Positions 20,237 to 36,981 of a DNA stretch of 64,000 bases are shown here, in pieces. The notes beneath the pieces were generated by a model, which saw only the letters and a list, made by a program, of their open reading frames with translations, was not told where the DNA came from and made no database searches. Location: positions 124,001 through 188,000 of the forward strand of contig JANQPX010000030.1 in the NCBI GenBank assembly GCA_028285265.1. The letters run 5' to 3'. The translations under genes were made by a program, and so were the position numbers. Numbering within the stretch: the first letter of the stretch is position 1; each line of letters opens with the position of its first letter. Source of the stretch: Geminicoccaceae bacterium. Lineage in GTDB: Bacteria; Pseudomonadota; Alphaproteobacteria; Geminicoccales; Geminicoccaceae.

Positions 20237-21523
20237 CTAGTATCGTGCTGCCAGCGGCGAGAAGGGAATGAAGTCACAGGTGTCGCCGGGTGCAAGCTCG
20301 CTCAGACCAGGTGGGAAGACTGCAAATCCGCTCGCTGAAGCAAGTGCTGAGATTCGCGCTGAGAAACCGGACTCGGCAACGGACAGAACTGGGGTGGGGC
20401 CAGCATAGCCAATAATTGTAGCTGGGCGGAATTCGACCCTGCCGGGTCGACGTTTTAGGCTAAAGTTCACTCTTGCCTGGATACGGATAGGAAGGCTGTC
20501 GCTGAAGCCGGCACGCCGTCTGAGCGTGCGTGCGCCAATCAGTGCAAAGGTCGTGAATACCGATACTGGGTTGCCAGGCAGGCCGAGAAAGATCGCAGCG
20601 CCAAGGCGGCCGACGGTAAGCGGCTTGCCGGGTTTCATCGCGACTTTGATGGCCGCCGATTCGCCGCCCAATTGTTCAAAGAGGCGGGGTAAGTAGTCCG
20701 CATCGCCGACCGACATGCCGCCCGTGGTGATGATTACATCAGCGGTCTTCGATGCTTTGGTAAGCGCGGAGGTCAGGCGGGTAATATCGTCAGGGATGGC
20801 GCCGTAATCTGTCAGGTTGATCCAGGGTTTGCTCAGATCGGCAAGCATGGCGTAACGGTTCGAATTGTAGATCTGACCGTCGCTAAGCGGGAAGCCTGGT
20901 TGGACCAGCTCCGAGCCGGTGCAGATCAGCGTGACCTCCAGCCTTCGCCGAACGGATACCGTGGTCCGACCGATGGCTGATAGCGCAGTAAGTTCGCGAG
21001 CGCCAATCTCGCGTCCTGGGTTGAGCAGCCTATCGCCAGGGCGTGCATCTTCGCCCCGGCGACGAATGTTGAGGCCCTCCTTTGGGGGCTCGGTGACGGT
21101 GATTGACTGTTCACCGCGTTCGACGTGCTCCTGCATAACGACGGCGTCAAAACCGGTCGGGATGGGAGCGCCAGTCATGATGCGCACAGCACCGTTATCC
21201 GAGATCCCATCGGGCTCATCGCCGGCCAAGAGGCAGTCGATGATCGGAAAGGTCCAGGGGCTGTCGCCGCTCAGTCTTCCAATCTGGAGGGCGTAACCGT
21301 CCATCGCCGCAGCGTCGAAGGGCGGCAGATCCATTGTTGCATCGACCGTTTCAGCAAGTGCTCGTCCAATGCTGCGCTCAATAGAGAGGTCTTCGACGTC
21401 CACGACTGGTTCGGCGATGTCGAGGGCCCGCTGAATAGCAGCATCAAGCGAAAGGAGTGTTTTGTCTGAGGAGGAACCGCGAGGAAACTCCTGATCTTGA
21501 AAGGCCGGTGAGGCTGATGTCAT
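20237..21523 (-). CDS. moeA: Molybdopterin molybdenumtransferase MoeA
   Basis: Inserts molybdate into adenylylated molybdopterin to give active Mo cofactor. The 428-residue protein has the MoeA N-terminal region DLPPFDAAAMDGYAL, GAPIPTGFDAVVMQEH, the MPT-binding TGSELV and TTGGMSVGDADY, then GLPGNPVSVF. Its own ECF-type promoter (21541-21566) lies just upstream. No other Mo-cofactor genes are visible here, but the molybdoenzyme operon starts 2 kb away and seems to share the promoter type. Confidence 0.95.
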   Translation of the reverse strand: MTSASPAFQDQEFPRGSSSDKTLLSLDAAIQRALDIAEPVVDVEDLSIERSIGRALAETVDATMDLPPFDAAAMDGYALQIGRLSGDSPWTFPIIDCLLAGDEPDGISDNGAVRIMTGAPIPTGFDAVVMQEHVERGEQSITVTEPPKEGLNIRRRGEDARPGDRLLNPGREIGARELTALSAIGRTTVSVRRRLEVTLICTGSELVQPGFPLSDGQIYNSNRYAMLADLSKPWINLTDYGAIPDDITRLTSALTKASKTADVIITTGGMSVGDADYLPRLFEQLGGESAAIKVAMKPGKPLTVGRLGAAIFLGLPGNPVSVFTTFALIGARTLRRRAGFSDSLPIRIQARVNFSLKRRPGRVEFRPATIIGYAGPTPVLSVAESGFSARISALASASGFAVFPPGLSELAPGDTCDFIPFSPLAARY

Positions 21524-21668: not shown

Positions 21669-22574
21669 CTAGGCCTGGTCACCTAGCGCTGGGTTCGATC
21701 GGGCCGATGAGGGCCCATCGATCCGACCGAAATCCGCGATCGTTGAAGCGGTGCTATCCAAAGCTGCAACTTGGCTTCGCGCCAGGGCAGCCAGGAATAT
21801 CGACATATCCTGCTTCGGTATGTCAGAGACGACGGTATAGACCAGTTCACCCTTACGCCAGATCATCGTTCGCAAGCCATCAACCTCATGGGTAGACAGG
21901 CTGATACCGAGCTCCGGGTCGTAGGCGCTGCTGGGTAGGGCGATGTCATGCGCCGTCATGACGTAGACGGCGAGCGACTGGTCGCCCCGCCGATAGGAAA
22001 AGGCGCTCAAACGGCGCTCAAGAAGCCAGCAGAGCCGACCACCAACCAGTTCGAAGCCCGCGACCTTGGCCTCGAGCTTGGGGGCTTCGAAGGTTAGCCG
22101 GCTGGCGAACCAGCTTCGGATGGTTGTTGGATCGCGGCTCGCAATATCCAGGTTACGGCCACTATCGCGATAGGTCGAGAAGTCATGGATGGGCGCAGCG
22201 ATGATCGAGTTTGCCGGTTTCATCCACTGCCATGTCAAACCCGCTGGCAACGCTATCATGATGAGTAGCGAGGCCGCCATGGCCATCTGCCAGACAGGCT
22301 GATTGTACCAGGCCTTCGATTGAGTTGGACGATGATCATCTAGACTTTCGGGCAGGCGCACTTCGATCCGCTTCCAGAGGTCACTCGGCGCTTTGACATC
22401 GCTGAGGCCGGCCTTAATCGTTCTGTTCAACGTCCGAAGATCCTCGACGCTTTGGCGACAAGTCGCGCAATGGTCGAGATGATCGCTGATCATCCTTTTT
22501 TCGTCAGCGCTGCACTCGCCATCGACGAAGGCTTCGAGATCGTAGGTGTTCTTGTTGCAAGGCATCGTAAGCAT
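21669..22574 (-). CDS. Membrane anti-sigma factor with zinc-finger-like domain
   Basis: A 301-residue protein whose N-terminus has the anti-sigma zinc motif H-x3-C-x2-C (His32, Cys36, Cys39). One membrane segment follows at about 93-115, and a 185-residue domain follows outside. This is the layout of an ECF anti-sigma that holds its sigma at the membrane and senses an envelope signal. It lies five bases after the sigma gene. The signal is unknown; Cys residues near the motif would allow redox sensing, but this is inference. Confidence 0.82.
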   Translation of the reverse strand: MLTMPCNKNTYDLEAFVDGECSADEKRMISDHLDHCATCRQSVEDLRTLNRTIKAGLSDVKAPSDLWKRIEVRLPESLDDHRPTQSKAWYNQPVWQMAMAASLLIMIALPAGLTWQWMKPANSIIAAPIHDFSTYRDSGRNLDIASRDPTTIRSWFASRLTFEAPKLEAKVAGFELVGGRLCWLLERRLSAFSYRRGDQSLAVYVMTAHDIALPSSAYDPELGISLSTHEVDGLRTMIWRKGELVYTVVSDIPKQDMSIFLAALARSQVAALDSTASTIADFGRIDGPSSARSNPALGDQA

Positions 22575-22579
22575 TCCCG

Positions 22580-23188
22580 TTAGAACAACGATACCACACG
22601 GGGACTGGTCGTCGTGTCGTGGTGCTCTTTTGCTCTCCGCTCGAGAGTGAGATCGAGCTTTCGCTGAAGATGTTTGCGCGCCCGGTGCAGCTTGGATCTC
22701 ACCGTACCGATCGGCAGATCCAAGCTTTCCGCGGCCTCGTCGTAGGACATCCCTTCGATCAGAATCAAGACAACAACGGCTCTGGGTTCAGGCGCCAATG
22801 TTGCAAGGGCGTCTATGAGAGCCTGTTGTGTGTCGCTGCGCATCGCCTGAACTTCTGGGTTGTCGGCACAGCGATCACTCGACTGGAAGCCTTCGCCTTC
22901 TGCAGGAGCCACGTCGATCGGCACCATTGAGATGGCGGCGTTTCGACGGATGTGATCGATGCAGAGATTGGCGAGAATGCGAAACAGCCAGGCCTTGAAG
23001 TTGGTGTCATGTCGATAACGGGCGAAGTTGGCGTAGGCTTTCAGGCAAGTCTCCTGGACGATGTCTTCGGCAACGGCGTGATCATGGGTCATGCGCAAAG
23101 CGGTTCGGTAGAGACCGTCCAGATGTTGCTGCGCTAACTGGACGAACAGCTTTCGAGATCCTTGCTTTCCCGATGAATCACTCACCAA
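22580..23188 (-). CDS. ECF RNA polymerase sigma factor
   Basis: A 202-residue sigma-70-family regulator with region 2 (DHAVAEDIVQETCLKAY, then FKAWLFRILANLCIDHIRR) and region 4 (LATLAPEPRAVVVLI and MSYDEAAESLDLPIGTVRSKL, the helix-turn-helix). No receiver-type extra domain is seen. It is co-transcribed with its anti-sigma and preceded by an ECF-type promoter (23277-23301), which suggests autoregulation. It is divergent from the Aio-like operon, whose promoter has the same form. Confidence 0.9.
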   Translation of the reverse strand: MVSDSSGKQGSRKLFVQLAQQHLDGLYRTALRMTHDHAVAEDIVQETCLKAYANFARYRHDTNFKAWLFRILANLCIDHIRRNAAISMVPIDVAPAEGEGFQSSDRCADNPEVQAMRSDTQQALIDALATLAPEPRAVVVLILIEGMSYDEAAESLDLPIGTVRSKLHRARKHLQRKLDLTLERRAKEHHDTTTSPRVVSLF

Positions 23189-23301: not shown

Positions 23302-23475
23302 CAAAAAATGAGGAATTCGCTTATTGCGATGATTGGTGCGGGAGATTCGATAGAGTCAGAGTCTTTATCATATTCTGTAACTCATTGAAAAATATAAGTT
23401 TGATGTGATTTTTCGAAGGTTATCGGAGGCCTGAGCCATCTGAAGATTAGAATTCGAAAAAATTTACCATGGTAC

Positions 23476-23500
23476 GGAACTTTCTCCCGAGGCCTTCGTT
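23476..23500 (+). promoter_or_regulatory. ECF-type promoter of the Aio-like operon
   Basis: GGAAC (23476-23480), 16 bases, CGTT (23497-23500), an exact match to GGAAC-N16-CGTT. The expected transcript start is near 23507, before GGGAG (23522-23526) and the GTG at 23535. This also argues that an ATG at 23469 cannot be the real start, because it lies upstream of the promoter. The general stress sigma EcfG of alphaproteobacteria recognises the same core, so it is an alternative user. Confidence 0.7.
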
Positions 23501-23534
23501 TCAGTCAGCAGAGGCCACATCGGGAGATATTGTT

Positions 23535-24101
23535 GTGACAGTTCTAGACAATCAAAATTCGAGTGAAGACATACTTCCATGCATGCGCCGACGCGAGTTG
23601 CTGATGGCCAGTGCCGTCGGGGCAACGGCGGCGACGTTGGCGCCTGGCGTGACCATGGCAGCGACTGAGGGTGGGGCTGGCACCTATCCGCGTCTCTCCG
23701 TGATCAGGATGAGTGATCTCATTGAGGGCGAGCCGGTCGCGTTCAGCTACCCGCTCGAAGAACAGCCCAACATGATCGTCAAGCTGGGAACGCCGGCACA
23801 AGGCGGCGTCGGGCCGGATGAGGACATCGTCGCGTTCAGCGTGCTCTGCACCCATATGGGCGGCAGTTTGCGTGGCAAATACAACCACGAATTCAAGTCG
23901 ATGGGCCCGTGCCCGTTCCATTTCTCGACCTTCGACCTGACCAAGAGCGGCGCGATTGTGCATGCCAGCGCTACCCAACATCTACCGCAGGTGAAGCTCG
24001 AAGTGGACGGCGATGATGTGATCGCCGTCGGCATGAACGGCCTTGTCTATGGCTACCGCGACAATCTCAAGGACGGCTCGCCTGTCGTCATGCAGGGCTG
24101 A
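23535..24101 (+). CDS. Rieske 2Fe-2S subunit of an Aio-like oxidase
   Basis: Small subunit of an arsenite-oxidase-family enzyme, passing electrons from the Mo subunit to a cytochrome. The 188-residue protein starts at a GTG eight bases after GGGAG. A twin-arginine signal (MRRRELLMAS, 17-26) would also carry the large subunit out. The Rieske cluster is Cys105-x-His107 and Cys126-x2-His129. The two extra Cys that form a disulfide in bc1-type Rieske proteins are Gly110 and Phe128 here. It is followed 35 bases later by the large subunit. Confidence 0.85.
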   Translation: MTVLDNQNSSEDILPCMRRRELLMASAVGATAATLAPGVTMAATEGGAGTYPRLSVIRMSDLIEGEPVAFSYPLEEQPNMIVKLGTPAQGGVGPDEDIVAFSVLCTHMGGSLRGKYNHEFKSMGPCPFHFSTFDLTKSGAIVHASATQHLPQVKLEVDGDDVIAVGMNGLVYGYRDNLKDGSPVVMQG

Positions 24102-24136
24102 CCAGGCTGGTCCGAGAGAACATGGGATAAGAGACG

Positions 24137-26773
24137 ATGGCGAAACGAAACGATCTTTCTGAGAAACAAGCGGTTAGCCGGCGGGGTCTGCTGCTCGCGC
24201 AGCGCAGCCCCTCGATCGACTATGGTGTCTACCAACCGGCGGTCGACGAGGTGCCGGTGCCGCCTGCGGATGCCGAGGTGCATCCCACAGCCTGCGAATA
24301 CTGCATCGTCGGCTGTGGCTACAAGGCCTACACCTGGCCGGTGGACAAGGAGGGCGGCCCGAAGGCGGATCAAAACGTGTTCGGAAAGGACTATCCGATC
24401 AAACCGGCGAGCGGCAATTGGGCCAGCCCGGAAATGCACAGCATCGTCCGCAAGGACGGCGAGCTGCACAACCTGCTGGTCATTCCCGATGGCGAGACCG
24501 CCGTCAATCGGAAGGGCAATCACTCCGTGCGCGGCGGCCGTTCCGCTCAAAAGCCCTACAGCCCAAACCGACCGACCTCGGACCGCCTGCAGGCACCAAT
24601 GGTGCGCGTGAACGACACGTTGCAGGCGATCTCTTGGGAGGACGCCACCTCGATCATTGCCGAGCTTTCACAATATGCGATCGAAAAGGAGGGCCCGAAC
24701 GCGTTTGGCATGCGCTACTACTCCTATCAGTTCTGGGAGAACACGTTTGCGCTGACCAAGCTGATCTACAAGAACATCGGGACAGCGGTCGGTGCCGAGC
24801 ATGACAAGCCGACGGCTTCCAACGACGCAACCGGTCTTGATGACTGCGGCGTCGACGGCTTCTCGACCTCCTACTCCGACTTCCAGCAGGCCGACGTGAT
24901 CTTCATGTCCGGCTTCGACCCTTACGAAAACCAGACGATCCTGTTTACTGAGTGGATTGCCCCTGGCGGTGCCAAGATCATCTTCGTCAACCCGCGAAAG
25001 AGCCCGACCGCGGTTTATGCGGAGCGGAACGGCGGCCTGCACCTGCAGGTGCAGCCGAACACCGACACGGTCCTGAACAACGCCATCCAGCGCTACATCA
25101 TCGAGCAAGGCTGGGAGGATCGTGAGTGGATCGATCGGATGACGGTCAGCCGCGACGACATCGAATCCGAAGACCCCAAGCACTGGCGCCGCCGGTCGTT
25201 CGGTCAGACCTTCGAAGAGCATAAGGCCTGGCTGCTTTCCGACGACACCTACACGCTTGAAAACGCTGAGCGCATCACCTGGGTGCCGAAGGAAAAGATC
25301 ATCAAGGCAGCCGAGATGCTCGCGCGGCCGCGTGGCAAGCTGCGGACCAAGGCGGCTTTCATGCTAGAGAAGGGCAATTATTGGTCCTTCAACTTCCCGG
25401 CCAGTGCGTCCCTTTCCTCACTCGGTCTGGTCTGCGGCGCTGGCAGCCGGCCCGGTCATAATATGAGCCGCGCTGGCGGTCATCAGCGCGGCGGCATGAA
25501 GGCGGCGGGTTATCCGCTGAAGAAATCCTGGGTGAAATCGAAGCACGGCCGCCAGGGCGAGAACGCCCTGATGCCGGTGAACTTCGATGAATATGCCATG
25601 TCCGGCAAGCTCAAGGTCGCCTGGATCCTCGGCACCACCTGGCTCGACTCGATGAACGCCGCCCAGGCCATCCGGCTGAAGCTGGGCGAGATGACCAGGA
25701 AGCATCCGATCTATCCGGAAAGCCTGGACAAGAATGCAATCGTCGAGGCGTTCAAGCGGCGCATGGACGACGGTGGCATGTTTCTGATCCAGCAGGACAT
25801 CTTCCCGAACTCGCTGACCCAGTTTGCCGACATCGTGCTGCCTGCTGCAACCTGGGGCGAGGTCGACTTCGCACGCGCCCAAGGCGAGCGCCGCCTCCGC
25901 ATCTACTCGCGCTTCAATGATGCGCCGGGTGACGCAAAGCCCGACTGGTGGATCATTGCCCAGGTCGCCAAGAAGATGGGTTACGAGGGCTTCGATTGGG
26001 AAGAGTCCAACGACGTCTTCGAAGAGGCGGCAATGAAGTCCGAGGGTGGTCACTATGACGCCTCCAACCTGGTACGCATTGCCCGGGAAAAGGGCATGAA
26101 GACTCACGAGCTTCTGCGTGAGATGAGCACCACGGGCATTCAGCTGCCCGCCCGTATCGTCAATGGCGAACTCAAGGGAACGCTTCGTCTGCACGACGAG
26201 ACCTTCCCCGCTGAAGAGGTCGACACCGCGCCCAAGATCGTAAAGCAATTCAAGACCGCGAGTGGCAAAGCGATCTTCATGAAGGGCGACTGGGACCTAG
26301 TGAAGGACACCTTCGAGCAGTTCCGTCCGCAAGGGGACGAGCTTTGGGTTTCGAATGGCCGGATCAACCACATCTGGCAGTCCATGTATGACGACGCGAG
26401 GAATCCCTTCGTCAAATCGCGCTATCCCTCGAACTTCCTAATGATCAATCCGGCGGACGCTGAACCGCGCGGCATCGAAAGTGGCGATCTGGTCACGGTC
26501 GAGAACGACAAGGTGCTGAACCAGCTCGGCGAGATGTCCCGTGGTGTTGTCTCCCTCGTCGCCTACGTCACCGACGAGGTGGGCGAGGGTGTTACCTACA
26601 CCTACGCCTTCTATCCCGGCCAATCCGCCGACCTTGTCGTGCCCGCCGTCACCGACCCGGTGACCGGCGTCTACAACTACAAGATCGGCAAGGGCGTGGT
26701 GAAGAAGTCAGGCGAGACGCCGCTCAAGTCGGTCGATGGCAGCATGTCCTTCATTCCACGGACAGTCGGTTGA
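24137..26773 (+). CDS. Aio-family molybdopterin oxidoreductase, catalytic subunit
   Basis: An 878-residue DMSO-reductase-superfamily enzyme, closest by eye to arsenite oxidase AioA (usually about 820-850 residues). The 3Fe-4S motif is Cys53-x2-Cys56-x3-Cys60 (CEYCIVGCGY), with a Ser (HSVRGG, Ser130) where AioA has Ser rather than a fourth Cys. SRAGGHQ (Arg445, His449) matches the Arg and His that help bind arsenite in AioA. In contrast, the region 223-261, where AioA has its His and Glu ligands, holds neither His nor Glu (Thr232 at the His position). The substrate is therefore open. It is exported with the Tat-signalled Rieske subunit. Confidence 0.9.
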   Translation: MAKRNDLSEKQAVSRRGLLLAQRSPSIDYGVYQPAVDEVPVPPADAEVHPTACEYCIVGCGYKAYTWPVDKEGGPKADQNVFGKDYPIKPASGNWASPEMHSIVRKDGELHNLLVIPDGETAVNRKGNHSVRGGRSAQKPYSPNRPTSDRLQAPMVRVNDTLQAISWEDATSIIAELSQYAIEKEGPNAFGMRYYSYQFWENTFALTKLIYKNIGTAVGAEHDKPTASNDATGLDDCGVDGFSTSYSDFQQADVIFMSGFDPYENQTILFTEWIAPGGAKIIFVNPRKSPTAVYAERNGGLHLQVQPNTDTVLNNAIQRYIIEQGWEDREWIDRMTVSRDDIESEDPKHWRRRSFGQTFEEHKAWLLSDDTYTLENAERITWVPKEKIIKAAEMLARPRGKLRTKAAFMLEKGNYWSFNFPASASLSSLGLVCGAGSRPGHNMSRAGGHQRGGMKAAGYPLKKSWVKSKHGRQGENALMPVNFDEYAMSGKLKVAWILGTTWLDSMNAAQAIRLKLGEMTRKHPIYPESLDKNAIVEAFKRRMDDGGMFLIQQDIFPNSLTQFADIVLPAATWGEVDFARAQGERRLRIYSRFNDAPGDAKPDWWIIAQVAKKMGYEGFDWEESNDVFEEAAMKSEGGHYDASNLVRIAREKGMKTHELLREMSTTGIQLPARIVNGELKGTLRLHDETFPAEEVDTAPKIVKQFKTASGKAIFMKGDWDLVKDTFEQFRPQGDELWVSNGRINHIWQSMYDDARNPFVKSRYPSNFLMINPADAEPRGIESGDLVTVENDKVLNQLGEMSRGVVSLVAYVTDEVGEGVTYTYAFYPGQSADLVVPAVTDPVTGVYNYKIGKGVVKKSGETPLKSVDGSMSFIPRTVG

Positions 26774-26790
26774 GAACAGGGAGCGACCTG

Positions 26791-27549
26791 ATGAAGACTT
26801 TCATGACGACAACGGCGCTCTCGGTAGCCGGCGCGGCCGTCCTGGCCATGGGAATCTCTGAACAGAGCCTCGCCCAATCCGCGGTACAGGAGGCGACCGA
26901 CGAACTCCTGGCACTCGGCGAGAAGACCTATATGCGCGAATGCGTGGCATGCCACGGTGCCGAGGGCGATGGCGAGGGGCCGGGCAAATACATCCTGAGT
27001 GAGAAGCCGAGGAACTTCCAGCTCGCCACCTATAAGTTCCGTTCGACGCCGAGCGGCGACGTGCCGTTGCCTGAGGATCTGTTCAAGACCATCACCAACG
27101 GGCTTCAAGGAAACGGTGCCGCGATGCCGGCTTTCGCCTCTCTTTCCGAGGACGAGCGCTGGGGGCTGGTGCATTACATCATCCAGCTTGGCGGCATCGA
27201 GGACGAAGAGCCGGAGGCGATCGAAGTGCCGGCGGAGCCTGAAATCACTGAAGCCAGGCTGGCGAACGGGGCGGACGTCTATAACCGTCTCAAATGCGCC
27301 ACCTGCCACGGCGATGACGGCTGGGGTGACGGTCCGTCCTCTTTGACGCTCAAGAATGATGCCAAGGAGCAGGTTTATCCGACCAATATCGCGATCGGCA
27401 TCTTCAAGGGCGGCACCAGTGGCGTGGAGCTCTATAAACGGATCGCCACCGGTCTCGACGGTTCGCCCATGCCATCTTACGCCGACGAAGCGTCGCCGGA
27501 CGAGATCTGGGACGTCGTCCATTACACGCTGAGCCTGGTCGAAAAGTAG
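26791..27549 (+). CDS. Dihaem cytochrome c
   Basis: A 252-residue periplasmic electron carrier with a signal peptide (about residues 1-29) and two c-type domains: CVACH (51-55) with a later MPAF methionine, and CATCH (169-173) with PMPSY. AGGGAG lies before the ATG, 17 bases after the molybdoenzyme stop. It is the obvious acceptor for electrons from the Rieske subunit. The two domains closely resemble the last two domains of the CcoO fusion at 31446-33185 (shared PRNF, YKFRST, SGSPMPSY-like stretches). Confidence 0.93.
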   Translation: MKTFMTTTALSVAGAAVLAMGISEQSLAQSAVQEATDELLALGEKTYMRECVACHGAEGDGEGPGKYILSEKPRNFQLATYKFRSTPSGDVPLPEDLFKTITNGLQGNGAAMPAFASLSEDERWGLVHYIIQLGGIEDEEPEAIEVPAEPEITEARLANGADVYNRLKCATCHGDDGWGDGPSSLTLKNDAKEQVYPTNIAIGIFKGGTSGVELYKRIATGLDGSPMPSYADEASPDEIWDVVHYTLSLVEK

Positions 27550-27618
27550 AGCGGGGCAATCCGATCTGATCAGGTGTCGAGGATACGCGTCCAAAATGAG
27601 CAAAAAGGAAAACGCGGA

Positions 27619-28356
27619 ATGAAGGCGAGCACATTCACGATGGCCTTGGTCGCGAGCACGGCCCTGGCCGCGACTGCGGCCGAGGCCAAATACAAAGAGA
27701 CCGAGGTCACCGACGGCGGCAGCGTTCAGGGTGCTGTTATGTTCGACGGGGCCGCTCCCGACCTGCCTCTCGCGGAGATCGCCAAGGACAACGAGGTCTG
27801 TGGCGACGGTAGTGTCATTCCCAATCCAGTAACGATCGGCGCAGGCGGCGAGCTTGAAGGTGTGGTGGTCTATCTGGAGGAGGTCAACGAGGGCAAAGCC
27901 TGGCCGGAGCAGGAGTACGTTCTGGACCAGCAGGAATGTGCTTTTGAGCCCTATCTACAGGTGGTGCCGAAAGGCGTCGAAATGACGATAAAGAACAGTG
28001 ATCCCGTCTTGCACAATGTGCATCCCTTCGAGATCGTCGGCGACAAGCGGCGCACACTTTTTAACTTGGCCCAGCCACAGCAGGATCAGGTCAACACCAA
28101 GAAGATCAAAACGCGCAGAGGTAAGGCGGTCGAGCTTGCCTGTGACGCCCACGCTTGGATGGCCGGCTGGCTCTATGTTCTGGAGCACCCATACTACGCC
28201 GTGGTCGGCGCCGATGGCACGTTCGAGATCGGCGACATCCCGCCCGGTGACTATAATCTGGTTGCCTGGCATCCAGTTCTCGGCACCCAGGAACAGGATA
28301 TCCAGATTGCCGCCGGCGGTGCTGCGGACGCGTCGTTCCAATTCATCGGCAACTGA
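27619..28356 (+). CDS. Cupredoxin-like secreted protein
   Basis: A 245-residue protein with a signal peptide. The C-terminal half has HNVHPFE (132-138) and CDAHAWM (Cys175, His178, Met181), which together fit a type-1 copper site His...Cys-x2-His-x2-Met. It resembles plastocyanin-like proteins annotated as methylamine-utilisation or carboxypeptidase-regulatory-like; the final part (IPPGDYNLVAWHPVLG) matches that fold. AAGGAA precedes the ATG. It may be a second electron carrier of the cluster; copper binding is inferred. Confidence 0.75.
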   Translation: MKASTFTMALVASTALAATAAEAKYKETEVTDGGSVQGAVMFDGAAPDLPLAEIAKDNEVCGDGSVIPNPVTIGAGGELEGVVVYLEEVNEGKAWPEQEYVLDQQECAFEPYLQVVPKGVEMTIKNSDPVLHNVHPFEIVGDKRRTLFNLAQPQQDQVNTKKIKTRRGKAVELACDAHAWMAGWLYVLEHPYYAVVGADGTFEIGDIPPGDYNLVAWHPVLGTQEQDIQIAAGGAADASFQFIGN

Positions 28357-28501: not shown

Positions 28502-29443
28502 ATGAATGCGATCACTCACATCCTACTGACGAAAGCCGCGAGGATAGGCGCGGTCGCTACAGTCGCTTTCGGCTTTCCGTCAGGTGCGGCCTTGGCCTCC
28601 GACGATGTCGAAACAGTGCTCAAATCCTATCTGCGCGCCCTTTACAGCCGTGACGCACAAACAGCTTACGAACGCCTCTCGTCGATGGATCATTCCATCA
28701 AGACATTTGATGAGTATGCGCAGGAGGTCGGCGCGTTTGACGGCCCTGCGCTGGTCGTCGCCAAAGCACTCGCCGAGCAGATCGACTTCGGTGCCTTTGA
28801 GATCGAAGAGGCGGACGATCACGTCGACGTTACCTTCGACGTCACCCTTCCCAATGCCAACGATCCCGCCATCAAGGAGATGATGCGCAGCTTTGACGCC
28901 AAACGGCTGAGCGAACTGACGCCGTCAGAGATCGAGACGCTGATGGCCGACATCGAGACGATGCGTTTGACCGGTGGGCTTCCCGTGCTCGAATCCGAGG
29001 GCGAGCGCTGGTCGCTGGTGCGCGAAGGCGATCAGTGGCGCGTTTTCGAGAACTGGGCAGAGGCGGTCGAGGTCCGTTTCGATGCCGCGACCTTCCACGA
29101 TTTGCCATGGGAATTCGAGCCCGTGCGCACGCGCGTGATGGCGAAGCATGGTGAAACCATCCAGATGGCCTATCGCGCCAGGAATGTCGGCGACGAAGAG
29201 ATCACGGCGAAGGCACGGCACATCATTGGACCGGACGACGATGCCGATTTTCTCGACATCATTTCCTGCTTCTGTTTCCTCGAAGAGACCCTGGCGCCGG
29301 GCGAAGCGACCGAGTTGAGTCTGGTCTTCAGGGTGGACTACGAGGCGCCCGACGACGCCACGGCCTTCACTGTCAAGTACGAATTCTATCCGGCCGAGCG
29401 CTTTCCCGAGGTCGAGCAAGCCCATGCGCGGGGCCAGCGCTGA
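28502..29443 (+). CDS. Secreted protein: NTF2-like region fused to a Cox11/CtaG domain
   Basis: A 313-residue protein. Residues 1-33 are a signal peptide, and about 34-185 form a region with the feel of an NTF2-like or SnoaL-like fold (LKSYLRALYSRDAQTAYERL, then GDQWRVFENW). Residues about 200-305 match Cox11: LPWEFEPVRT, GETIQMAYRARN, and the copper-binding CFCF (256-259) followed by LAPGEATEL. Normal Cox11 is anchored by a membrane helix and delivers copper to the CuB site; here the helix is replaced by this other domain. AGGGG lies before the ATG. It overlaps the next gene by one base. Confidence 0.8.
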   Translation: MNAITHILLTKAARIGAVATVAFGFPSGAALASDDVETVLKSYLRALYSRDAQTAYERLSSMDHSIKTFDEYAQEVGAFDGPALVVAKALAEQIDFGAFEIEEADDHVDVTFDVTLPNANDPAIKEMMRSFDAKRLSELTPSEIETLMADIETMRLTGGLPVLESEGERWSLVREGDQWRVFENWAEAVEVRFDAATFHDLPWEFEPVRTRVMAKHGETIQMAYRARNVGDEEITAKARHIIGPDDDADFLDIISCFCFLEETLAPGEATELSLVFRVDYEAPDDATAFTVKYEFYPAERFPEVEQAHARGQR

Positions 29444-29964
29444 TGCCTGCCTTCGGCCCGAAAGCGCGGCTTTTCGCGGCGATCGTTTTCTTGGCGCTGT
29501 CGACTGCCGCTTGGGCGAGCGGGCCGATGGGCGACCTTGAGGTGCGCGTCACCGACCACAAGCCTGGCATCGATCAGTTTAGCGCGCTCGATGTCACGCT
29601 TAAGGCAGTCGCTTTGCATGAAAAAGGGCAAGGGCGTCGCGAAGGCTGGCGGGACATCGCTGGGCCGTCACCGGCGATCGACATCGTCCCGCTCAAGGAC
29701 GGCGTCTACGAATCGTTGGGCTCCGTCCGTGTGCCGACCGGCGCCTATGACGCCGTCGCCGTCCGTTTCGACAAGGTCGACGGTGAGCTGAAGTCCGACT
29801 ACGAGCCGACCATCTGGCTCGAGGATGCGATCGTTCGCATCGACCTTGCCATCACCGAGCAGGAGAACTTGCCGCTGGTCGTCGATCTCTATGCCGAAGA
29901 CCAGACCGAGCATGATCCGCCACGCTATGTCGTCAAGGTTAAGGAGGTGCGTCTCGGTGAGTAA
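29443..29964 (+). CDS. Secreted DUF4382-like protein
   Basis: A 173-residue protein with a signal peptide ending near AAWASG. The body is beta-rich (GDLEVRVTDHKPGIDQFSALDVTLKAVALHEKG) and resembles DUF4382, a periplasmic family of unknown role. No cysteine pair or haem motif is present. It overlaps the Cox11-domain gene (TGATG) and precedes ccoN by 35 bases. A role in assembling or stabilising the oxidase is suggested by position only. Confidence 0.6.
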   Translation: MPAFGPKARLFAAIVFLALSTAAWASGPMGDLEVRVTDHKPGIDQFSALDVTLKAVALHEKGQGRREGWRDIAGPSPAIDIVPLKDGVYESLGSVRVPTGAYDAVAVRFDKVDGELKSDYEPTIWLEDAIVRIDLAITEQENLPLVVDLYAEDQTEHDPPRYVVKVKEVRLGE

Positions 29965-29999: not shown

Positions 30000-31433
30000 A
30001 TGTCTAACGCAGCCGCAATGCCGACGATGAACTCACAGGAACTGGATGATCTCGTCGACAGACCGCTTGTCCGAAAGTGGCTGCTGACCGGCATGTTCTG
30101 GCTCATGTTCGGGCCGACCGTCGGCGCCGTCATCTCCACCTTCTTCAACTACCCCGACTATATGGGCACGGCGCTGGAGCTGCAGTTCGGTCGCCTTCGC
30201 CCGCTGCATGTGAACGGCGTGATCTTCGGCGCCTTCTCCACGCTGTTCATCGGCCTTTGCTACTACGTCGTGCCGCGCCTCTGCGGCGTGCGCGTCGTCT
30301 GGGAGGATTGGGCCCACCGTCTTTGCTGGATCTGGAACCTGACGCTCGCCGCCGGCATGGTGTCGCTCGCTTTCGGCTACAACCAAGGTCTCGAAGCAGG
30401 CGAGTTTCCGTTCTTCGTCGATCTCGTCATCTTTGTCGCGATCACCTTTCTTTGCGCGCAATTCCTGGTAACTACGGCGAACCGCAAGGAGCCGCAGCTC
30501 TACGTTTCCATGTGGTATCTACTCGCCGGCTTTGTCTGGACCGTGATGACGATGATTCTGGGCTCGTTCATCCTGCCCTACTTCATCTCCGGCATCTCGA
30601 GCGCCGCCTTCCACGGCCTCTATATCCACTACATCGTCGGTCTCTGGATCACGCCCGCTGGCTACGTCCTCATCTACTACTTCCTGCCGGCAGCCGTGCA
30701 GAACCCGATCTACAGCCACAAGCTCTCCCTGGTCGGCTTCTGGTCGCTTGCCCTCTTCTACCCCTTCGTCGGCATTCACCACTATCTCTACTCGCCGATC
30801 GCGGATTGGGCGGAGACGCTGGCGATCATCACCTCCATGCTGCTGATCATCCCTGTCTGGACCGTGCTCCAGAATTTTTTCGGGACGATGATCGGCCGCT
30901 GGCGCGACTTCGGCAAGAACCTGCCGGCCAAGTTCTTCATCATGGGCTCGATCATGTATCTGATCGGCTGCTTCCAGGGCTCGACCGAGGCGCTGCGCTC
31001 GATCCAGGAGCCGACCCACTTCACTGACTTCGTGATCTCGCACTCCCACCTCACGATCTTCGGCACCTTCGTGGTCTGGGCGGTGGGTGGCCTGGTTTAT
31101 GTCTGGCCGAAAATCCACGGCCGCGAACTCTGGTCGTTCAAGGCGGGCAACTGGTCGTTCTGGCTGATTACGTTAGGCATCAGCACCATGGGCATCGTGC
31201 TGACCGCGCAAGGCCTGCAGCAGGGTTACATGTGGATGGCTGGCGTCGAGTGGATGGACTCGCTTGTACCGCTCAAGGCGTTCTGGTTCACCCGCACCGT
31301 CGCGGGAATCATCATGGATCTCGGCATGACGCTGCTGGTCTACAACCTGATCCGCACCGCGATGCCTGAAGAGTCGGTCTCACCTGAGACCACCGGGACC
31401 GCGTCGCCTGTGCCATCTCCCGCGACTGCCTAG
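30000..31433 (+). CDS. ccoN: cbb3-type cytochrome c oxidase subunit I (CcoN)
   Basis: Catalytic haem b / haem b3-CuB subunit of a cbb3-type oxidase, reducing O2 to water. The 477-residue protein starts at an ATG preceded by GGGGAAAGAAG. It has about 12 membrane helices. Ligands are visible: His70, His210 (YIHYIVGLW), His260-His261 (GIHHY), His348 and His350 (SHSH). The catalytic Tyr of the cbb3 class lies six residues before the HH pair (Tyr254). The gene lies inside the Aio-like block, 35 bases after the DUF4382-like gene. Confidence 0.94.
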   Translation: MSNAAAMPTMNSQELDDLVDRPLVRKWLLTGMFWLMFGPTVGAVISTFFNYPDYMGTALELQFGRLRPLHVNGVIFGAFSTLFIGLCYYVVPRLCGVRVVWEDWAHRLCWIWNLTLAAGMVSLAFGYNQGLEAGEFPFFVDLVIFVAITFLCAQFLVTTANRKEPQLYVSMWYLLAGFVWTVMTMILGSFILPYFISGISSAAFHGLYIHYIVGLWITPAGYVLIYYFLPAAVQNPIYSHKLSLVGFWSLALFYPFVGIHHYLYSPIADWAETLAIITSMLLIIPVWTVLQNFFGTMIGRWRDFGKNLPAKFFIMGSIMYLIGCFQGSTEALRSIQEPTHFTDFVISHSHLTIFGTFVVWAVGGLVYVWPKIHGRELWSFKAGNWSFWLITLGISTMGIVLTAQGLQQGYMWMAGVEWMDSLVPLKAFWFTRTVAGIIMDLGMTLLVYNLIRTAMPEESVSPETTGTASPVPSPATA

Positions 31434-31445
31434 CGAGTAGAAACA

Positions 31446-33185
31446 ATGCTTACTATGAACCTCAGAACGGTCTCGCTGGTCGCCGGTTTCGGCTTCGTCA
31501 CGCTCGCGACCTTCACCCAGGGCGTTCTGCCGATGCTCGAGCCGCAAACGCTGACCGACAAGGTGACCCGCGTGGTGCGCACCGATCTCGGTGAGCTGAA
31601 ATGGATAGAAGCCCAGGCGGTCGACTACACGCCCGAAGAACAGATGGGCCGGGACATCTATATCCGCGAGGGCTGCTGGTACTGCCATTCGCAATATGTC
31701 CGTCCGGTCACCGGAGAGACGCTGCGCTGGGGGCCGATCACCCAGGCCGGTGAGTATGCCTATGATACACCACATCTTTTCTCGACACGGCGCATCGGCC
31801 CCGACCTTTCGCGTGTGGGTCTGAAATATTCGGACGAGTGGCACTATGCCCACTTTTGGGATCCGCGCATGATCATCCCGGAGTCGATCATGCCGCGTTT
31901 TATGAAGCTGTTCGATGCGCCCGAAGAACCTGTGGCCGTGGTCGACGGTCCGGATGGTCTCAAGACCGTCGAGCAGAATGAGGTCACCGAGGCCATTTTC
32001 GACTTTTCCAAAGCCGGAGATGCGGCTGCACATCTCAAGATTACCCCCAATCAAGACGGCCTCTTGTTTGTACCGGAGCGCGGAAAATATCCCGTGATCT
32101 GGACACCGAACGATGAGTTCACTGGAGACAACGTCGAGCTTGCCGTGGTGACCGAGGAACTGACGTCGCTGGTCGCCTATCTGCAAAAGCTCGGCATGAA
32201 TCGTGGCAAATGGCGCGATGTGTTCGCCTCGCAGACCGCGGATATCAGCCAGGTGAGCTTGGAAAGAGATGAGGAGTGGATCGGGCTTGGGCGGAAGGTC
32301 TATGACCGCCGCTGCGCTGGCTGCCACGGCGTCGAAGGAGACGGCAATGGCCCGGCGGCGACTTTCACCTACCGGGACCGTCCGCGCAATTTCAACCAGG
32401 CTGTGTTCAAATTCCGATCGACGGGCTCCGACTCGCTGCCGACCGATGGTGATCTGCTGCGAACTTTGGTGAGAGGCGTTCGCGGCACGTCGATGCCAGC
32501 CTGGCACATGCTGTTGGAGAAGGAACGCCAAGCGGTCATTCAATATATCAAATACGAACTGGCCGTGGATCGCTCGGATCCTGAAGATCCTTATGTGATC
32601 TTCGAAGAGGAGGAGCCTGAGGAGCCCATCCATATAGCCCGTGCGCCCGAACCCGACGAGGACATGATCGCCGAAGGCCAGGAGATCTGGCAGCAGGCCA
32701 AGTGCTGGGAGTGCCATGGCGAGACTGGCAAAGGCGATGGCCCGAAGTCTGTAGGCTTGAAGGACGACAACAAGTTTCTGATCTGGCCTGCCGATCTGAC
32801 CACTGGTCAGTTCAAATCAGGACCGTCCGTGCGGGATATGTTCCGCACGATCTCCAATGGACTGAGTGGATCGCCGATGCCGTCTTACTCGGACTCGTTT
32901 GACGAAGATGAGCGCTGGGCGCTTGCTTACTACGTGATGTCGCTTTCCTCCTTTACCGATCCCTTGAGCCGCAAGCCGCTCGTCATCGACGACGCCGATC
33001 GCGACGCACTGAACGATCCTGATCTTGAGGCGCGTCGATCAGAAGACGCTTACAAGCCGGAGAAGGCCATCGCCGACTCGAACACGCGCTATGGCGGGAA
33101 TGCCTGGGCGAAGCGGCGCGGTATGGAGGTTATCGGCGATGCGAATGCCGACGAGACACGGACGTTTGAGATCAAGCAGCAATGA
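31446..33185 (+). CDS. CcoO fused to a dihaem cytochrome c module
   Basis: A 579-residue membrane protein. Residues 1-250 match CcoO: an N-terminal helix, CWYCH (77-81), SQYVRPVTGET, RIGPDLSRVG, DPRMIIPESIMP. Two further c-type domains follow, CAGCH (290-294) with GTSMPAWH and CWECH (420-424) with SGSPMPSY. In usual cbb3 oxidases the two extra haems sit on CcoP, a separate subunit. Here they are on the same chain as CcoO. The C-terminal tail (about 500-579) is hydrophilic and unlike known domains. Confidence 0.9.
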   Translation: MLTMNLRTVSLVAGFGFVTLATFTQGVLPMLEPQTLTDKVTRVVRTDLGELKWIEAQAVDYTPEEQMGRDIYIREGCWYCHSQYVRPVTGETLRWGPITQAGEYAYDTPHLFSTRRIGPDLSRVGLKYSDEWHYAHFWDPRMIIPESIMPRFMKLFDAPEEPVAVVDGPDGLKTVEQNEVTEAIFDFSKAGDAAAHLKITPNQDGLLFVPERGKYPVIWTPNDEFTGDNVELAVVTEELTSLVAYLQKLGMNRGKWRDVFASQTADISQVSLERDEEWIGLGRKVYDRRCAGCHGVEGDGNGPAATFTYRDRPRNFNQAVFKFRSTGSDSLPTDGDLLRTLVRGVRGTSMPAWHMLLEKERQAVIQYIKYELAVDRSDPEDPYVIFEEEEPEEPIHIARAPEPDEDMIAEGQEIWQQAKCWECHGETGKGDGPKSVGLKDDNKFLIWPADLTTGQFKSGPSVRDMFRTISNGLSGSPMPSYSDSFDEDERWALAYYVMSLSSFTDPLSRKPLVIDDADRDALNDPDLEARRSEDAYKPEKAIADSNTRYGGNAWAKRRGMEVIGDANADETRTFEIKQQ

Positions 33186-33194
33186 GGCCAAGCG

Positions 33195-33356
33195 ATGTTT
33201 GAACAGACAATCCTTCAATTCCTCGTGGCCGCGTTTATGAGCTTGGGCGGTGTGTGCGTATTCATCTGGGCGGTTCTCTCCGGTCAGTTCAATGGGATCG
33301 AAGAACCAAAATATCGCGTCTTCGAGATGGAGAGGGATGACGATGTCCGACAATAG
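33195..33356 (+). CDS. ccoS: CcoS-like oxidase assembly protein
   Basis: A 53-residue protein with one membrane helix. The stretch VFIWAVLSGQFNGIEEPKYRV matches the CcoS signature FIWAVxSGQFDDLExPAYR. In known systems CcoS is needed for cofactor insertion into CcoN. The stop overlaps the next gene's start by 14 bases. Too short for a long-frame search but well supported by motif and place. Confidence 0.85.
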   Translation: MFEQTILQFLVAAFMSLGGVCVFIWAVLSGQFNGIEEPKYRVFEMERDDDVRQ

Positions 33357-33540
33357 TTCCGGTCATAATAAGGACGTGCCGCATCACCAGCAGGTCGAGA
33401 GCTATGGCGGCGGCCATATTGAGGCGCGTCACGGACGGGTCAATCTCTGGCTCGCCCTCGTCTATCTCATCATGTTCATCTGGGCGATCTACTACGGCTT
33501 CACATATTGGGGCGGTCTCGGCCCCGGCCTCGACTACTAA
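33343..33540 (+). CDS. CcoP-like single-helix membrane stub without haem motifs
   Basis: A 65-residue protein: a hydrophilic N-terminus rich in His (VPHHQQVES), then one membrane helix (VNLWLALVYLIMFIWAIYYGF), then GGLGPGLDY. This layout resembles the N-terminal membrane part of CcoP, which ends in a Trp/Tyr-Pro-Gly stretch before its cytochrome domain. There is no CXXCH. The two cytochrome domains may have moved to CcoO, leaving the membrane part as its own gene. The start overlaps ccoS. Confidence 0.7.
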   Translation: MSDNSSGHNKDVPHHQQVESYGGGHIEARHGRVNLWLALVYLIMFIWAIYYGFTYWGGLGPGLDY

Positions 33541-33874: not shown

Positions 33875-33979
33875 CTGTGTGACCACGTCGTGGACGTTGA
33901 CCGCCAGTGTCTGGATTGATGGTATGTCGCCTGGTTTGAGATGGTCAGCGATGTGGCGATTTGTTGCGACAGGGCCGAC

Positions 33980-34777
33980 ATGAGTGCCTTTCTGGTCGCT
34001 ATGTTGGCAGGTGTCGCCGGCAGTTTTCATTGCGTTGGCATGTGCGGCGGCTTCGCCTGCGGCCTTGCCCAGGCGCGAGGGGGGCCAAGATCCGCATTTG
34101 TGATCCAAGGCCTTCTCTACAATACTGGCCGTGTCGTCAGCTACGCCTTCATCGGCGCCCTTGCCGGGCTTCTTGGGCATGTGCTCATTGGCGGGCATGC
34201 GCATTCGGTAGGTGTGGCCCCGAACTTCGCCGCGATCGCTATGGATGCCACGACACATGGCATGATCACGGCTGAGCTGATGCCGGAGCCCCACGGCATG
34301 GTTCTGGCTGGCGAGATCGGCTGGGCGCAGCGAAGCCTGTCCATCCTTGCAGGGTTGCTGATGCTGGTGATGGCCTCGGAGCTCTTGGGCCTGCGCCGTC
34401 GAGCCCCCGCAAACTGGACAAGACTAGGCAGCGAGGGCTTCGCCAAGGTTTTTCGTACATTGTTGACATCCAAGCGCCCAACAGCAGCGTTGGCGCTCGG
34501 TGTTGCCAATGGATTTTTGCCCTGCCCGTTGGTCTTCGCCTTCGCTGCGGCGGCCGTCGCCACTGGAACCGTCGTCGATGCGGTCCTGCTGATGACCGCC
34601 TTCGGACTTGGCACCTTTCCAGCCATGTTTTTCATGGGCACCGTCGGTTTCTTCATGACGCCCGTGGCGCGCAAATGGGGTGTGCGCTTTTCCGGCGTCT
34701 TTGTCCTGGCAATCGGGCTGGTGACCTTCATACGCGGCCTTGCGCCGAACCTGCTGCATGGCATGCACATGACATGA
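33980..34777 (+). CDS. SafE/TauE-family membrane protein of a cbb3 cluster
   Basis: A 265-residue protein with about seven helices. The N-terminus has GSFHCVGMCGG, and a later GFLPCPLVFA; these Cys-containing helices are usual in the SafE/TauE (UreH-like) members that sit beside ccoGHIS genes. Start chosen at the ATG in front of MSAFLVAML. Such proteins are proposed to move or hand over copper for oxidase assembly, but the substrate is not proven. It overlaps the ATPase gene by four bases. Confidence 0.85.
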   Translation: MSAFLVAMLAGVAGSFHCVGMCGGFACGLAQARGGPRSAFVIQGLLYNTGRVVSYAFIGALAGLLGHVLIGGHAHSVGVAPNFAAIAMDATTHGMITAELMPEPHGMVLAGEIGWAQRSLSILAGLLMLVMASELLGLRRRAPANWTRLGSEGFAKVFRTLLTSKRPTAALALGVANGFLPCPLVFAFAAAAVATGTVVDAVLLMTAFGLGTFPAMFFMGTVGFFMTPVARKWGVRFSGVFVLAIGLVTFIRGLAPNLLHGMHMT

Positions 34778-36981
34778 CAGATTTGCCGGCCAGGACCTCG
34801 ATTTCTGATTTTGCCAACGCTGACGCCGTCGAAGGCGCATCCGCAGCTTCTCCGTTCTGCGATCACTGCGGTCTGCCGCTTGGGCGTCTGGACTATCGGC
34901 GCGACGACGAAGATCAGCCTGTACAGTTCTGTTGCTACGGCTGCTATATCGGCTGGCAGGCGGCGAGAGGCGGTGGGGATGATGTCGCCGCGGTCGGCTT
35001 TTTGATTCGCTTGGGCGTCGGCGCCTTCCTGGCGATGAATATCATGCTCTTCAGCCTGCTCCTCTACACAGGCGCGCTCGACGGTATCGATCTCTGGCTG
35101 AAGCCCTACGTGCACGGTCTTCTCTGGATTTTGGCAACGCCGGTACTGATTATCCTCGGAGGACCATTTTTTAGAGAAGCGATCACCGGTCTTATCGACG
35201 GCAGGCTTGTATCATCCGTCCTGGTCGTGATTGGCACGTCAGCGGCTTATGCCTATTCGGCCATTATCACGTCGCAGGGCGGCGATCGCGTTTACTTCGA
35301 CGCCGTGGCCCTGATCTTGGTGCTCTTCACCCTTGGCCGATATCTGGAAGCCGAAGGCCGCGCCCGTGCCGCGCGCAGCCTTCGGCCCTTCCTCAATGCC
35401 GAACAGCTAAAGGTACGTTGCCTCATCGATGATCGCGAGCTTGTTCTGCCACTTGCAGAAGTGACACCAGGCATGCGGGTTCGGATCGAGCCTGGCGAGC
35501 GCACGCCGGTCGACGGTAAGGTGATTGAGGGTGTGTCGACGGCCGAGGAATCATCGCTCACCGGTGAACCCTGGCCTGCAGAGAAACAACCGGGTGCGGA
35601 CGTGCTCGCCGGCAGTTACAATGGGGATGGTGTTCTCATCGTCGAGGCGACGGCTCCCGGCCTCAACTCTCGCTGGATCACCATCTGCCGAGAAGTTCGA
35701 CAGGCCCTGTCGCAGCCGACGCACTTGCAGCGGCTCGCCGACAAGGTTGCTAGGCTGTTTGTGCCCTCGGTGATGATCATCGCTGTCGTTGCGGCTTGGT
35801 TCAACGGCCATGACGGAACGATCGATGCCGCCCTTTTGTCCGGCCTTGCCGTTCTCGTCGTCGCCTGTCCCTGCGCGCTTGGCCTCGCCTCGCCGTTAGC
35901 CACCAGCATGGCTGTCGGTCGCTTGGTCGAGGCTGGTATCACGCTTCGCCACGGCCTTGCACTTGAGGCTCTCGCGAGCGTGCGCACAATGGCCCTGGAT
36001 AAAACCGGCACGCTCACCGCTGGTCATATCACATGTCGGGAGACGGTCGACATCGCTGCTGATCCTTGTGACGGCTTGTGGCGCGCCGTCAGCCTCGCGG
36101 TTCATTCGAAACATCCGATCTCCAAGGCCATCTGCCGAACGGCCGCTGAGCACGGTATTGAGGGCTGTGCGGCTTCGGAGGTCGAGATCGTACCGGGCAT
36201 GGGTATTCGCGGCACTATCGACGGTGAGATCGTGATCTTGGGCAATGCGCGCTGGCTTAAGAGCGCAGGGATCGATCTGCCGGAGAGGGTGCAAAGAAAG
36301 ATGATCGCGGCGACAGAACAGGGACGGATGCTCGTCTTGGTCGGCTGGAACGGACAGGCGCGCTTCCTCATGACCTTCGACGACGTCAACCACCCCGATG
36401 CAGAGGCGCTGATCAAGATCCTCCGGAATGACGGCGTACACACCATCGTTCTTACCGGCGATGGCAAGCAGCAGACGGAACGGTTTTGTCGCTCGCTGGG
36501 CATCGATCACTGGTTTGCGGAGACCACGCCCGAAGGCAAATGCGCTGTTTTGGACGCCATTGCGGCGAATCGACGGCCGCTCGCCATGGTGGGAGATGGA
36601 GCCAACGACACGACAGCGCTGACCCGCGCAGACGTGGGCATCGCCGTGGGCAGCGGCACGGATCTGGCGCGTGAAACCGCTGACATCGTGCTACCGTCAG
36701 CAGGAATCGCTGCATTGCCCATCCTCCTTCGGCTGGCGCGTGTCACCAAAAGAACGATTGCGACGAACCTCACCTGGGCTTTCGGCTACAACATTATCGC
36801 CATCGGTCTCGCCACAGCCGGTCTGCTCCAGCCGATCATCGCTGCCACCCTCATGGCCGGTTCTAGCCTCGCGGTCGTCGCCAACACCGTGATGAGACTA
36901 GCACCAGGGGATCAAGTGGGAGGTTCGGGAAGACCTTCGCCACGTCAATCATCGGCGGGAGGGGCCGTATCAGCGCAATGA
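34774..36981 (+). CDS. ccoI: CcoI-type copper-transporting P-type ATPase
   Basis: A 735-residue P1B ATPase that exports copper for oxidase assembly. The N-terminus has CDHCG (29-33) and CCYGC (53-57), the metal-binding arrangement typical of CcoI. The transmembrane CPCALGLASP, the phosphorylation site DKTGTLT and GDGANDTTAL are present. The ATGA overlap with the preceding SafE gene shows coupled translation. Neither ccoG nor ccoH is seen beside it. Confidence 0.95.
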   Translation: MTDLPARTSISDFANADAVEGASAASPFCDHCGLPLGRLDYRRDDEDQPVQFCCYGCYIGWQAARGGGDDVAAVGFLIRLGVGAFLAMNIMLFSLLLYTGALDGIDLWLKPYVHGLLWILATPVLIILGGPFFREAITGLIDGRLVSSVLVVIGTSAAYAYSAIITSQGGDRVYFDAVALILVLFTLGRYLEAEGRARAARSLRPFLNAEQLKVRCLIDDRELVLPLAEVTPGMRVRIEPGERTPVDGKVIEGVSTAEESSLTGEPWPAEKQPGADVLAGSYNGDGVLIVEATAPGLNSRWITICREVRQALSQPTHLQRLADKVARLFVPSVMIIAVVAAWFNGHDGTIDAALLSGLAVLVVACPCALGLASPLATSMAVGRLVEAGITLRHGLALEALASVRTMALDKTGTLTAGHITCRETVDIAADPCDGLWRAVSLAVHSKHPISKAICRTAAEHGIEGCAASEVEIVPGMGIRGTIDGEIVILGNARWLKSAGIDLPERVQRKMIAATEQGRMLVLVGWNGQARFLMTFDDVNHPDAEALIKILRNDGVHTIVLTGDGKQQTERFCRSLGIDHWFAETTPEGKCAVLDAIAANRRPLAMVGDGANDTTALTRADVGIAVGSGTDLARETADIVLPSAGIAALPILLRLARVTKRTIATNLTWAFGYNIIAIGLATAGLLQPIIAATLMAGSSLAVVANTVMRLAPGDQVGGSGRPSPRQSSAGGAVSAQ

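Follow-up and report, generated by a model that had tools for sequence, protein, structure and literature searches.

Why should a Cox11-type protein be encoded among the genes of a cbb3-like oxidase? Cox11 goes with aa3-type oxidases, its known client (PMC9145763), and cbb3 enzymes do not need it in Rhodobacter sphaeroides or Pseudomonas pseudoalcaligenes (PMC5829832) or, according to work cited in PMC12617631, in Bradyrhizobium. The route by which copper reaches the CuB site of cbb3 oxidases is regarded as unresolved (PMC5829832; PMC9145763). We analysed a 64,000-nucleotide stretch of a Geminicoccaceae genome (the window) in which a gene for a fusion protein with a Cox11 domain lies just upstream of ccoN and ccoO. 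The gene and its parts are as follows.

28502–29443, plus strand: whole gene, an ORF for a 313-residue Cox11-domain fusion protein, with a full-length homologue (45% identity) at L029:14212-15168
28502–28597, plus strand: signal-peptide-like N terminus, residues 1–32, with putative cleavage (placed by eye) between ALA and SDD and a hydropathy maximum of 1.53
28598–29050, plus strand: extra N-terminal domain, residues 33–183, with homologues in L029 (41%) and L033, possibly NTF2-like
29051–29389, plus strand: Cox11/CtaG domain, residues 184–296 (PF04442, E 7.1e-26; PDB 1so9, E 1.9e-27)
29267–29278, plus strand: CFCF copper-binding motif, residues 256–259, read from the sequence and unchanged in the two fusions and in all 22 canonical Cox11s compared

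The Cox11 assignment is robust at the level of the domain. PF04442 scored 91.5 bits against the fusion (cut-off 25), and the sole hit of a PDB search was Sinorhizobium meliloti Cox11 (1so9/1sp0), over the same stretch as the Pfam match; the C-terminal Cox11 match and the CFCF sequence at 256–259 given in the preliminary description were thus both recovered. The match spans profile positions 30–147 and, since it begins at position 30, the N-terminal part of PF04442 is missing from the fusion. Against NF003465, the NCBI equivalog model of the classical assembly protein, the score was 104 bits, below the cut-off of 162. The protein has no cysteines other than the two of CFCF.

About 150 residues stand ahead of the Cox11 domain, behind a signal-peptide-like start, an arrangement also as first described. 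The start bears K/R, followed by a short hydrophobic run interrupted by PSG and the ALA–SDD junction. Residues 1–32 look like a cleavable Sec-type signal peptide. An in-frame stop lies five codons upstream of the ATG, so there is no hidden upstream membrane segment. The initial claim that the protein has no membrane anchor holds in part: the segment adjacent to the anchor in canonical Cox11 is indeed replaced by the ∼150 residues, but the hydropathy values alone (0.7–2.5 in canonical Cox11) would be compatible with an uncleaved anchor at the N terminus.

The fusion gene has a GC content by codon position (0.64/0.42/0.74) that is typical of coding DNA. Together with the syntenic full-length homologue, this means that it did not arise by chance or as an artefact. 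The host assembly, with 6.95% contamination and 81 contigs, might raise the suspicion of a chimera or a misannotated ORF; the coding composition and a copy with the same architecture and gene order in an independent metagenome-assembled genome (MAG; L029) refute this, and we give the idea practically no weight.

We compared the Cox11 domain with 22 canonical alphaproteobacterial Cox11s. In the resulting tree the two fusions form a clade apart from all 22, on a long branch with full support. Both have kept W203, F205, P207, G217, A226, N228, A238, P244 and CFCF and, beyond it, E261, L264, P266, G267, D279, T290, Y293 and F295; the features shared with Cox11/CtaG (PF04442, 1so9/1sp0), the CuB assembly factor of aa3-type oxidases, are CFCF-x-E, W-x-F, PG(E) and framework residues. 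Both fusions are changed at N241, G248, Y250, F251, K253, M272, V274, L291, S292 and T294. Five of these positions (N241, Y250, F251, K253 and T294) adjoin the copper site and are near-invariant in canonical Cox11, and the changes in YF-x-K directly precede CFCF. Altered residues so close to the copper site fit with a different partner. Unlike Cox11/CtaG, the fusion also has a deletion of five to six residues after VD, the extra 150-residue N-terminal domain and a place in a C-family oxidase cluster, and it lacks the anchor-adjacent segment with the third cysteine. This segment, FC-x-x-TGYGG (FCQ.TGYGG), is present in 22/22 canonical proteins and in 0/2 fusions. The third cysteine of human COX11 lies immediately above the membrane and participates in copper transfer to COX1 (PMC9232578). 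Judged from its sequence, the fusion is a Cox11-domain protein that departs from the classical type in its anchor region, its third cysteine and its equivalog score; it may nevertheless function as classical Cox11 does.

With so much lost, copper transfer itself could have been lost, leaving a structural or regulatory accessory of CcoNO or a partner of the DUF4382 protein encoded next, in which CFCF would serve for stabilization or sensing. The missing anchor and third cysteine, the loss of copper-adjacent residues, the added domain and the overlap of the fusion gene with the DUF4382 start all speak for such a role. What makes it distinctly unlikely in our view is that CFCF and the following E have been conserved without exception on a very long branch with many other changes, implying selection for copper binding.

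The N-terminal domain has a relative outside the fusions. A lipoprotein-like protein in another class of the phylum (L033:1408-2493) contains it as its N-terminal half, over ∼155 residues (28% identity; HMM E 1.7e-15); the two proteins differ in signal, which is lipoprotein-like in L033, and in the C-terminal part, which in L033 is unrelated and contains no Cox11 domain. PF04442 had no match in the L033 genome, and the domain is thus a module found separately from Cox11. Its own affiliation is less clear. No Pfam family matched it above cut-off, the closest being a weak SnoaL_4 match (E 0.057) in the L029 homologue only; a PDB search with the N-terminal profile returned no significant match, nor did comparing the profile with one annotated NTF2 protein reach significance. 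DUF4878 was tried as a candidate family and had no match in 120 genomes, the window's G000 included. An AlphaFold model built on the two-sequence alignment had a mean pLDDT of 54 (∼50 in the N-terminal domain, where its quality was too low for use). The predicted order of elements (helices, two strands, helices, two strands) and the closing motif LV.E...WRVF..W agree with an NTF2-like fold, which for residues 33–183 is still unproven. A search of one literature library found no papers joining CtaG, cbb3 and NTF2.

Downstream of the fusion lie the oxidase genes.

29443–29964, plus strand: DUF4382 protein (PF14321, E 4e-10), syntenic in L029
30000–31433, plus strand: ccoN-like C-family oxidase subunit I (PF00115); the ORF is listed from 29964, and homologues favour the ATG at 30000
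31446–33185, plus strand: ccoO-like subunit with a C-terminal dihaem domain (FixO and two cytochrome c matches)
33941–34777, plus strand: DsbD_2/TauE-type membrane protein, typical of cbb3 clusters (PF13386, E 1e-39)
34675–36981, plus strand: CcoI/FixI-type copper P-ATPase, from ORF sequence features, 43–47% identical to P-type ATPases of L029 and the rhizobial clusters

The fusion gene follows a cupredoxin-like gene and precedes DUF4382-ccoN-ccoO; the sequence TGATG combines its stop with the start of DUF4382, and 557 bp separate it from the probable ccoN start. The window CcoN is 74% identical to that of L029 and 67–71% identical to copies on rhizobial plasmids (Sinorhizobium, Rhizobium, Phyllobacterium), and shares ∼30% identity with each of the other CcoN sequences from 289 alphaproteobacterial genomes. 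In an alignment with five CcoN sequences it keeps the three CuB histidines, the cross-link tyrosine and the haem ligands. The TFEG motif has Q instead of the conserved E in all four members of the clade that were aligned. With CcoO and CcoI alongside such a CcoN, the cluster is of the cbb3 (C-family) type, and its oxidase represents a distinct C-family clade. It differs from canonical cbb3 in having no separate full CcoP. CcoP appears to be split over 31446–33540, with its dihaem part fused to CcoO; a small protein (33250–33540) that ends in YWGGLGPGLDY is conserved in L029 and the rhizobial clusters and resembles the CcoP membrane anchor.

How often does Cox11 occur next to such an oxidase? 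We surveyed 289 alphaproteobacterial genomes with at least 151 Cox11 loci, the window's own included; 84 of the genomes also had a CcoN-like gene. Among the 151 Cox11 loci listed, the window fusion is the only one less than 20 kb from ccoN (0.9 kb) and the next lies at 24.7 kb, a rate of linkage that is rough because of contig breaks. The cbb3 setting is thus as unusual for Cox11 as was first supposed.

The fusion is also rare. The search for this combination of domains brought up one other full-length copy, so that the architecture is not that of a widespread named family. The genes upstream of the fusion gave access to the second copy.

23469–26773, plus strand: Rieske subunit and IdrA/AioA-like molybdoenzyme, two ORFs (TIGR02694 and TIGR02693 above cut-off)
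26770–27549, plus strand: dihaem cytochrome c (two cytochrome c matches)
27574–28356, plus strand: cupredoxin-like protein, by its motif H...CDAHAWM, with a carboxypeptidase-regulatory-like tail (PF13620/PF14686 near cut-off)

In a tree the molybdoenzyme forms a separate sister clade that groups with IdrA, and it is 41–43% identical to the Azonexus and Thiothrix plasmid copies; on this placement AioA, the arsenite oxidase proper, was rejected as the head of the cluster. The idrP1/P2 peroxidase genes are absent from the molybdoenzyme cluster, which has an oxygen reductase instead. Divergent from the cluster is a pair encoding an ECF sigma factor and a zinc-finger anti-sigma factor (21669–23188), L030 has a comparable pair ahead of its Rieske gene, and a moeA gene (molybdopterin cofactor) lies nearby at 20237–21523 on the minus strand.

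With the molybdoenzyme as query, 84,980 species genomes yielded two loci, L029 and L030 (∼80% identity). In L029, from a Hyphomicrobiales MAG, the entire cluster recurs with its gene order unchanged, cupredoxin-fusion-DUF4382-ccoN-ccoO included, and the fusion there has 318 residues and is 45% identical end to end. The sister cluster L030:4606-10626, from an alphaproteobacterial MAG, has the Rieske, molybdoenzyme, dihaem cytochrome and cupredoxin-like genes; a dihaem MauG/CcP-type peroxidase gene occupies the place where DUF4382-ccoN-ccoO stands elsewhere, and the fusion is absent, as judged from one MAG contig. The single Cox11 match of the L030 genome covers the entire canonical profile. The fusion is therefore present in 2/2 clusters where this molybdoenzyme is then followed by ccoNO. 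Genome-wide searches with the N-terminal domain, which would overlook very diverged copies, gave matches in 1/385 genomes of the class, 2/398 of the phylum, 1/150 relatives of L029, 1/31 of the order and 1/78 of the class of G588; these comprised the known copies and L033, and there was no third fusion. A tblastn search of plasmids with the fusion found Cox11-domain matches only (≤ 48% of the query among the matches listed, none > 80%), and scans of viral contigs found nothing related to it. Both of the full-length copies known are in draft or metagenomic assemblies.

The genomes of the window and of L029 each encode a canonical Cox11 separately. Since the fusion is a Cox11 homologue and aa3 is the known client of that family (PMC9145763), it could be a second Cox11 for the canonical aa3 oxidase of its genome, located here by chance. 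We think this very improbable: the canonical protein is already encoded in both genomes, the fusion gene is less than 1 kb from ccoN and syntenic in two genomes, and the residues by its copper site differ from the canonical ones.

The cupredoxin-like gene, directly upstream of the fusion gene and encoding an H...C..H..M copper motif, offers another client. The fusion might load or store copper for this protein, or buffer periplasmic Cu(I), and not serve CuB; the absence of the anchor and the third cysteine, which serve delivery to a membrane target (PMC9232578), would suit such a role. The cupredoxin-like gene is syntenic in all clusters compared, but L030 and 4/4 rhizobial clusters have it and lack the fusion, and the fusion tracks the oxidase and DUF4382. 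We consider a cupredoxin or buffering role unlikely.

The rhizobial plasmid clusters (L050-L053, 6500-16700) are informative in a further respect. Their CcoN belongs to the same clade and they have neither Cox11 nor the fusion; the genes before ccoN encode SCO, the cupredoxin-like protein, a Tat-type metallophosphoesterase and a small CAMCH cytochrome. SCO/SenC and PCuAC are copper chaperones tied to cbb3 in other bacteria. They resemble the fusion in probable role and in cluster position, and belong to unrelated protein families. No SCO gene was found in the window or in the L029 cluster; other parts of both fusion genomes do contain SCO genes.

The fusion accompanies the oxidase, takes the place that SCO has in related clusters and, despite changes around them, keeps its copper ligands, and delivery of copper to CuB is therefore the likeliest reading. 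We propose, with slightly better than even confidence, that the fusion has diverged from Cox11 and acts in the periplasm as a Cu(I) chaperone or assembly factor reserved for the adjoining C-family (cbb3-like) oxidase. The CFCF pair would bind Cu(I), probably in a cluster shared between the two subunits of a dimer in the manner of Cox11; the N-terminal domain would replace the membrane helix and the third cysteine and supply docking or dimerization; and copper would be passed to the CuB site of CcoN. The scheme as we infer it thus comprises export, copper binding, dimerization and transfer to CcoN. In favour of the CuB chaperone, the oxidase keeps its CuB histidines and tyrosine, the fusion gene overlaps DUF4382 with ccoN next, L030 has cupredoxin, cytochrome and molybdoenzyme but neither oxidase nor fusion, SCO is encoded in the rhizobial clusters whose CcoN is of the same clade, and each fusion genome has its separate canonical Cox11. 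Against it, Cox11 was dispensable for cbb3 in the species tested (PMC5829832; PMC12617631), the third cysteine is gone, the copper site would not be held against the membrane without an anchor, and the SCO genes elsewhere in both genomes could metallate the window oxidase. Our confidence is held down because there are two fusions and only one peroxidase variant. A soluble Cox11 lineage whose client switched from A-family to C-family oxidases, with the added domain replacing anchor and third cysteine, is a tentative possibility.

Cox11 is regarded as irrelevant to cbb3-type oxidases, and the insertion of CuB into these enzymes is still poorly understood. The fusion gene also marks an unusual respiratory set, where an IdrA/AioA-like molybdoenzyme seems linked to an oxygen reductase of its own. 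A Cox11-type protein that is genetically tied to a C-family oxidase and has lost anchor and third cysteine provides a natural test of the parts that copper delivery requires, and of Cox11 client specificity as well. A real switch of client would make the fusion the first Cox11-type CuB chaperone dedicated to a cbb3-like enzyme, and would show that copper delivery can do without the membrane anchor and the third cysteine.
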